Shown in pieces: positions 11,930-15,164 of a stretch of 37,967 bases of DNA. The DNA is from Saprospiraceae bacterium. GTDB taxonomy: Bacteria; Bacteroidota; Bacteroidia; Chitinophagales; Saprospiraceae. The notes under the pieces are model-generated. The model was not told where the DNA came from. It saw only the letters and a list, made by a program, of their open reading frames with translations, and made no database searches. The translations under genes and the position numbers were made by a program. The DNA lies in NCBI GenBank assembly GCA_020631635.1, contig JAHDGW010000003.1, positions 1-37,967 of the forward strand, given 5' to 3'. The first letter of the stretch is position 1, and every line of letters begins with the position of its first letter.

Positions 11930-11974
11930 TGCAACAATGTTGCAAATAATCAGTTTTGTAGGTATATTTGCAAC
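11930..11974 (+). promoter_or_regulatory. Palindromic operator overlapping a TTG-N20-TATATTTG promoter of the MerC-family gene
   Basis: TGCAACA-A-TGTTGCA 15-bp palindrome (11930-11944); GTTGCAAATA (11939-11948) inverted with TATTTGCAAC (11965-11974); -33 TTG at 11940-11942 and -7 TATATTTG at 11963-11970, spacing 20 bp. Confidence 0.7.
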
Positions 11975-11978
11975 CTCA

Positions 11979-12362
11979 ATGAGTAAACGTCAAGGAAAAT
12001 ATACAGACATACTAGGCATGCTTGCTTCTATTGCTTGTGCTATACATTGTGCAGCTTTACCCATACTTGCAGCACTTAGTGTAGGTAATGGATGGTTTGG
12101 CCATGATCATACCTTTGATAATATCATATTGATCCTAGCAGCATATTTTATCTATAAGTCATTTTGGAACACTTATAAAAAGGATAACAATGCTACATTT
12201 TTGTGGGTCGCAATACTTGGTTTCTGTACTATTATCATAGGGCGATTTATACCTTTCCCGATAGAAGTACTATGCTCGATAGTTGGGGGTTTGACTATCG
12301 CCACAGCACATATACTACATATCCGATATCAGCAAGCGAAAGTAAAAGCTTCCGCTAGCTAG
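11979..12362 (+). CDS. MerC domain-containing membrane protein
   Basis: DILGMLASIACAIHCAALPILAALSVGNGWFGHDH with conserved CxxHC, plus TM helices. ORF track start 11937 lies inside the operator; MSKRQGKYTD at 11979 preferred. Confidence 0.85.
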   Translation: MSKRQGKYTDILGMLASIACAIHCAALPILAALSVGNGWFGHDHTFDNIILILAAYFIYKSFWNTYKKDNNATFLWVAILGFCTIIIGRFIPFPIEVLCSIVGGLTIATAHILHIRYQQAKVKASAS

Positions 12363-13974: not shown

Positions 13975-14077
13975 AAAATAAATTTTTTAAATGATGTTGG
14001 TTTGATAAAATAAAATTTGGGGGACTGGATACCGAGAAATCGGACTTCCAGCATTAGAATACTAATCGGATATGTAA

Positions 14078-14963
14078 TTAACTCGCAACCCGCTGAAAAA
14101 GTTGCTTTACTTCGCTTATTCCTTTTATAACCTTACAGTTTGGCGGTAATTTAAAGCGTTGTTTTATCGTCTGATATCCTGAAAGTATCAATTGTGCTTC
14201 TGGCATATTGGGTGCCATAATATCTATAAACTCCTGAATGGGTTCCTCTGCATAGCTATCGTTAATGATACTAAACACAAAGTCTGGCTTATAGATATTA
14301 TATGCTTCTAAAGCATCCATCACTGGGATACCAAAACCTAGACTTATGGTACGTAGACCTATTTTTTTCAATATGTAATGTAAGAAAAGAAGACTCAACT
14401 CATGGTTTTCATTTTCCGGCAAAAATATCAGACACTTCATATCTTGTCTTTGCTCGGTAGCTGATTCGTCTTCGATTGCTTTGATAATCTTACGTCTGAT
14501 GATATTACTTACAAAATGCTCATGAGCACCCTTGATACTACCTGCTATCCACATGGTGCTCAACTTATCCAACAAAGGATAAATAACCTCATTCATTGTA
14601 TTTTCAAATCCTAAACTTTCTATTTTTTTATTGAGAATACGTACAAATTTATCTTCTTCCATTTCTAAAATGGAAAGGGTCAGGGCGTCTAATTCAGACT
14701 CAAACATGCTATCCACCTCCGTGATCTCAGAGACTTTGTCTATAATCTCCTGAGGCTCCATACTTGATATATGGGAAATTTTGATTCCGCTACGATTGAG
14801 CAGAGCTATATTCAATATAAGCTTGAGGTCATCGTCATCGTAGTATCTAATATTTTTACTCGTACGTTTTGGCTGGATTACTCCATATCGACGTTCCCAC
14901 ATACGGATAGTATGTGCTTTCACTCCGGAGAGTTTTTCGATATCTTTTATTGAGTATACTACC
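14078..14963 (-). CDS. MerR-family transcriptional regulator with CarH/LitR-like B12-binding domain
   Basis: YSIKDIEKLSGVKAHTIRMWERRYGVIQPKRTSKNIRYYDDDDL HTH; WIAGSIKGAHEH matches the CarH Wx9EH motif; downstream Rossmann-like LIFLPENENHELSLL. Start MVVYSIKD at 14963 preferred over 15007. Confidence 0.88.
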
Positions 14964-15014
14964 ATTGTCCGTATGACTACAAATGCTTTAGAGTGATGTA
15001 AGAACAAGACTAAG

Positions 15015-15029
15015 CCACAATTGTTGTGG
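15015..15029. promoter_or_regulatory. Inverted repeat, candidate operator
   Basis: CCACAA-TTG-TTGTGG perfect 6-3-6 palindrome in the divergent intergenic region between the CarH-like regulator and bshA. Confidence 0.4.
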
Positions 15030-15041
15030 TAATTGTATTAA

Positions 15042-15067
15042 AGGACTACCTAATAAACTTTAGTCCT
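15042..15067. repeat. Second inverted repeat in the same intergenic region
   Basis: AGGACTA-N12-TAGTCCT perfect 7-bp arms. Confidence 0.4.
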
Positions 15068-15164
15068 CGAACTTACTAAACGAAAATAGAAATAAATTTG
15101 ACATGCGCTTGAAGCCTTTAGTAAAGTGTTTTTTTAATTCTATTTTCGGCATCAAAACAGAACA

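Follow-up and report, generated by a model that had tools for sequence, protein, structure and literature searches.

The merC-like gene and its probable operator

We have analyzed a window of 37,967 nucleotides, that is, the whole stretch of DNA considered here, from the genome of a Saprospiraceae bacterium. Our interest was in the region immediately upstream of a small gene of the MerC family (PF03203). The features found there are the following, those of the operator having no strand assigned:

11930..11944, no strand: operator box 1, TGCAACAATGTTGCA, probable site of a Zur-type Fur-family dimer, the sole exact copy in the genome and conserved before orthologues
11940..11942, + strand: -33 element TTG, 20 bp before TATATTTG, part of arm 2 in box 1, in a register (-33) common to many loci
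11963..11970, + strand: -7 element TATATTTG, which fits the Bacteroidota consensus TAnnTTTG and shares its TTTG with an operator arm
11967..11974, no strand: one arm, TTTGCAAC, left over from a second operator that has decayed, overlapping the -7 element, at the two-copy spacing seen in relatives
11971..11978, + strand: the 8 nt from the -7 element to the start codon, leaving room for a leader of a few nt
11979..12362, + strand: merC-like gene, PF03203, 127 aa, Pfam E 2.3e-16, four predicted helices, AlphaFold2 model with pLDDT 81

The gene has as neighbours an uncharacterised 473-aa protein, OMP_b-brl_2 and YceI genes, and no mer genes lie beside it. On the minus strand of the window (14078-15007) there is a gene for a 309-aa protein with an N-terminus that resembles, by eye only, a MerR-type regulator. 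The MerC-like protein carries a C-x2-H-C motif, located in the first helix, in place of the mercury-type CCFP cysteine-pair motif. In an alignment of 54 C-x2-H-C relatives C20, H23, C24 and P28 were invariant. A search of the AlphaFold2 model against solved structures gave no match (best E 1.1), and a tblastn search for MerC on plasmids gave one marginal match only.

The 15-bp palindrome that a sequence-only reading of this DNA had singled out is present, as a perfect 7-1-7 palindrome (TGCAACA-A-TGTTGCA, 11930-11944). The same reading also described a larger inverted repeat. The repeat is real, with perfect 10-bp arms, GTTGCAAATA at 11939-11948 and TATTTGCAAC at 11965-11974, separated by 16 bp, but we rejected a single large operator made of two outer arms, given that the paired copies found in relatives are mostly 36–40 bp apart. 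We prefer to see in it arm 2 of a first operator and arm 1 of a second, decayed one. In the window this second box would begin at 11969, 39 bp past box 1, with one arm only. Both copies, TGCAACAATGTTGCA and CGCAACAGAGTTGCA, are present in the sibling species (G001), where they stand 40 bp apart and one of them has one mismatch.

Conservation before merC-like genes

We searched for the pattern TGCAAC-N3-GTTGCA in 41 related genomes and found 57 exact occurrences; the pattern reversed, as a control, gave 3. We also scanned the 300 bp upstream of MerC-domain genes, allowing at most one mismatch, together with 70 control stretches of equal length. The box preceded 17/21 of the genes in the relatives and 28/49 of those sampled across the class; the 70 control stretches had no box. 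Among named genomes, of which the nearest relatives were Saprospiraceae MAGs, it preceded the merC-like gene in 42/47 Bacteroidota versus 1/16 in other phyla, in a set that was fetched with the C-x2-H-C pattern and is biased toward such proteins. Conservation in related genomes had been named in the sequence-only reading as one check and its lack as one ground for refutation; the box is indeed present upstream of the orthologues. The sole boxed gene among the 16 from outside the Bacteroidota (L255:5950-6351) is of the C-x2-H-C type, follows an exact box and belongs to a Leptospiraceae MAG, which would reflect either transfer or a binning error.

The MerC matches in the class sample were of two types: proteins of 117–154 aa bearing the C-x2-H-C motif, and longer ones, about 200 aa, in which the motif is CCFP and the tail is rich in Cys. 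The box preceded 27 of the 36 C-x2-H-C genes versus 0 of the 10 CCFP genes (p = 2e-5); the remaining nine C-x2-H-C genes had no box within one mismatch. The restriction of the box to the C-x2-H-C type, with CCFP genes unboxed, argues that the gene of the window is no mercury transporter and supports the earlier suggestion of a role in metal uptake. The CCFP proteins (L158, L160, L165, L166, L177, L179, L180, L185, L188 and L192), none of them boxed, have a GDCCVYCSYG-like tail end and are probably a mercury-type branch. The L165 gene has an ArsR-like gene in front, as judged by eye.

Promoter geometry

The -7 consensus of Bacteroidota promoters is TAnnTTTG (PMC7366714). The Bacteroidota-type promoter that had been proposed under the arms was borne out both by the window, where TTG stands 20 bp before TATATTTG, and by other loci. 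Among the boxed C-x2-H-C merC-like loci, 61 of 76 had a TAnnTTTG without mismatch at most 80 nt from the ATG, versus 4.5 in mononucleotide shuffles (maximum 11). In the fetched regions, 71 of the 76 boxes lie outside ORF bodies. The start of the box relative to the -7 element was mostly about -33, about -22 or exactly +6, and these registers can be read as three ways of sharing sequence with the promoter: at about -33 the TTG of arm 2 is the -33 element, at about -22 the TTTG of arm 1 takes that part, and at +6 the box shares the TTTG of the -7 element. Boxes paired at 36–40 bp thus combine the -33 and +6 registers. In the window the -33 box is complete and the +6 box is cut down to one arm.

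The ATG at 11979-11981 is 8 nt past the -7 element, at the coordinates given before. The distance from the start of the -7 element to the ATG was 12–17 nt in 26 of the 61 loci, counted with start codons chosen by rule as the nearest suitable ATG, so that very short leaders recur if these start codons are right. Leaders shorter than 10 nt make up only about 3.7% of the 5' UTRs of B. thetaiotaomicron (PMC7366714).

The Fur-family regulator

The host has a single Fur-family protein (PF01475, 120 aa, G000:C97:17414-17773), which is most likely the repressor that binds the box. Its full-length identity is weak to Fur and Zur alike. Among PDB entries, the family profile scored highest with E. coli Zur. 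Aligned to E. coli Zur (4MTD), with its ligands as given in PMC4219657, C64 falls on Cys88 and H50 on His77, in a numbering worked out from this alignment. Both CxxC pairs, which form site A, are kept, as are the site B ligands including the Cys88 equivalent. Across 13 relatives C81, C84, C116, C119, H76, H78 and C89 were invariant and H50 nearly so. Exact boxes were present in 22 of the 29 genomes with a Fur homologue versus 2 of the 12 without one (p = 0.001). The Cys88 equivalent is missing in some related regulators (L125, L126, L130, L110), and therefore zinc specificity should not be assumed for every member.

No box was found before the host's own repressor gene; autoregulation of this kind is frequent in Zur systems but not obligatory. 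Boxes directly before Fur-family genes were confined to relatives, namely G006, G007 and, with two cases, G018. In G018, G019 and G021 the Fur-family and merC-like genes are neighbours. We also noticed a second Fur-family subgroup (L125:7944-8354, L126:2308-2688, L127:3170-3547 and L130:8319-8714), with an N-terminus like MGIIRKTKSVK. Its members have promoters that themselves bear boxes, in register -16, and mostly lack the Cys88 equivalent; this is possibly a separate Zur-like lineage.

Other genes behind the box

In the relatives, the genes directly downstream of boxes included CobW (twice), DUF1826 (three times) and a HisI-type cyclohydrolase (PRA-CH) paralogue. Further boxed genes were ZnuD-like receptors with lipoproteins, DUF4625 lipoproteins and DoxX. 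CobW, DUF1826 and HisI paralogues are Zur regulon members in other phyla (Haas 2009, PMC2770081), and the boxed target set matches that of a Zur regulon. The sequence-only reading had proposed a search before other zinc genes, and such genes were found behind the box, Fur-family genes among them. The same palindrome before orthologues and before classic zinc-starvation genes across the Bacteroidota indicates that this is very probably a Zur repressor switch. The proposal of Fur/Zur-family control of the merC-like gene gains support from this and from the conservation of the operator; binding, repression and zinc as the metal are inferred.

Some boxed genes, FAD oxidoreductases and a Tricorn-like protease among them, are atypical of zinc systems, and one box precedes a NicO/DsbD-like gene. 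The oxidoreductases, unexpected in a zinc regulon, belong to the FAD/NAD(P) type (Pyr_redox_2/3) and have exact boxes at L104:5074, L105:4979 (G016) and L126:15558 (G018), the first two in register -33/-32. At L106:5135-5554 two boxes in registers -32 and +6, at a spacing of 38 bp, stand before the HisI (PRA-CH) paralogue, which in other phyla is a hallmark target of Zur.

The host genome (3.4 Mb in 436 contigs) was searched both by pattern and by stretches. The window site was the only exact occurrence of TGCAAC-N3-GTTGCA, and the reversed control pattern gave none. Two further sites differed by one mismatch from the 15-mer TGCAACANTGTTGCA. The one at C231:3415 precedes a lipoprotein gene, a 777-aa TonB receptor gene and a DoxX gene; the receptor scored highest with haem-type TonB receptor models and matched NF038289, the model of the zinc-piracy receptor ZnuD, with E 2.5e-21, under the curated cut-off of that model. 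The other, at C181:13740 (L007:13740-13754), precedes another TonB receptor gene (14018-15151), divergent from a DUF4856 gene; its mismatch falls in the core, and it is the weakest of the three host sites because its register, -36, is slightly off. In a genome of the same genus (G002) the merC site and the lipoprotein-receptor site are both kept.

Zinc importers

ZIP (PF02535) is absent from the host, and no box was found at the host's ABC-3 locus. Among 30 ABC-3 loci checked there were two one-mismatch matches, none convincing, and among 8 ZIP loci there was none. With these loci nearly free of boxes, zinc control of ABC-3 or ZIP importers by the box is unsupported. In the relatives ZIP was missing in 11/18 MerC-positive genomes versus 5/23 others (p = 0.02), and in the class sample in 17/47 versus 28/200 (p = 0.001), both values being calculated ignoring kinship. 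The genes adjoining the three host boxes offer only the MerC-like protein and DoxX as inner-membrane candidates. We take the direction to be import because of the logic of Zur regulons and these gaps in the pathway, i.e., a host without ZIP and with unboxed ABC-3, and on this analysis we somewhat favour the MerC-like protein as a zinc importer.

A probable zinc switch and its alternatives

We consider it highly probable that a zinc-loaded Zur-type repressor has its operator in the palindrome, at a near-leaderless merC promoter; the C-x2-H-C MerC-like protein is probably a zinc transporter. When zinc is sufficient, a Zur-type dimer on box 1 would cover the -33 TTG and block RNA polymerase, possibly aided by weak binding at the half-box on the -7 element. 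Under zinc shortage the dimer would come off the DNA, and the merC-like gene would be expressed together with the ZnuD-like outer-membrane receptors. The C-x2-H-C MerC-like protein would then most likely move zinc across the inner membrane.

The operator could be that of Zur and the zinc-starvation-induced protein still be something other than an importer, e.g., a metal-sparing, chaperone-like or metal-storage membrane protein. Zur regulons do have non-transport members (Haas 2009, PMC2770081) and no solved structure resembles the model, but this is a membrane protein with an invariant C-x2-H-C in its first helix, the sole inner-membrane candidate besides DoxX at the three boxes of a host that has no ZIP, and MerC-like genes are commoner in ZIP-less genomes; we regard this alternative as possible but rather unlikely. 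That the Fur-family regulator senses iron, manganese, nickel or cobalt, with the gene serving that metal, would agree with its low identity to Fur and Zur alike over the full length and with the box before a NicO/DsbD-like gene. It is improbable given that the targets are the zinc set (CobW, DUF1826, the HisI paralogue and a ZnuD-like receptor), the host repressor keeps the Zur-defining Cys88 equivalent and the ABC-3 loci examined have no convincing box.

A true mercury transporter, with the palindrome as the site of a MerR or ArsR type regulator, is suggested by the Pfam name MerC. We rejected such control as very improbable, since it is the CCFP subfamily of PF03203 that is unboxed (0/10) and that includes the gene with an ArsR-like gene in front, while the window gene has no mer neighbours and its box is shared with TonB receptors and CobW. 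A palindrome arising by chance, or as a general promoter feature, has in its favour that the arms contain TTTG, itself an element of promoters, so that matches close to promoters could be overcounted. However, the 57 to 3 ratio over the reversed control, the strong coherence of the targets, the box upstream of orthologues and its absence before the CCFP type, together with 1/16 before MerC genes of other phyla, leave this hardly credible, and it was rejected as well.

Relation to known systems

Bacteroidota are dominant in guts, soils and seas, and zinc sensing in them is poorly covered. A review of Zur from 2018 does not mention the Bacteroidota (PMC6103462), and a survey from 2009 gives Zur sites for Firmicutes, Proteobacteria and Cyanobacteria only (PMC2770081). 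In the searchable literature, with subscription papers and RegPrecise outside its scope, we found no description of this operator sequence or of a Zur-controlled merC. Zur regulons as such are well known already; the operator type, its overlay on TAnnTTTG and the merC-like member are the parts that, within that literature, are new. A defined operator makes the zinc regulon readable from thousands of genomes. Besides, our results suggest that the C-x2-H-C form of a family named after mercury resistance consists of zinc-starvation genes; many genes automatically annotated as heavy-metal resistance would then have to be relabelled. For a wider proposal the balance is about even: that C-x2-H-C MerC-like proteins are widespread and unrecognised inner-membrane zinc importers of the Bacteroidota, replacing ZIP, and that the Zur operator controlling them is specific to the Bacteroidota, with TTG triplets that also serve as -33 or -7 elements of the promoter.

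The system resembles the Zur regulons of Proteobacteria, Firmicutes, Actinobacteria and Cyanobacteria in having a Fur-family regulator with two CxxC pairs and a Cys88 equivalent, a palindromic operator on promoters, and ZnuD-like receptors, CobW (COG0523), DUF1826 and a HisI paralogue among the targets. It differs from them in its TAnnTTTG promoters, in having a merC-like gene as a main target and in the lack of convincing ABC-3 boxes. To our knowledge, TGCAAC-N3-GTTGCA is unlike the Zur boxes of other phyla. With the MerC mercury transporters (PF03203) the window protein shares the Pfam family, the small size and the four predicted membrane helices, but it has C-x2-H-C and not CCFP, no mer genes nearby and a Zur-type operator in front. 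ZIP (PF02535) and ZnuABC would be its counterparts in inner-membrane zinc uptake, probably at the same place in the pathway, although the MerC-like proteins belong to an unrelated family and are commoner where ZIP is missing.
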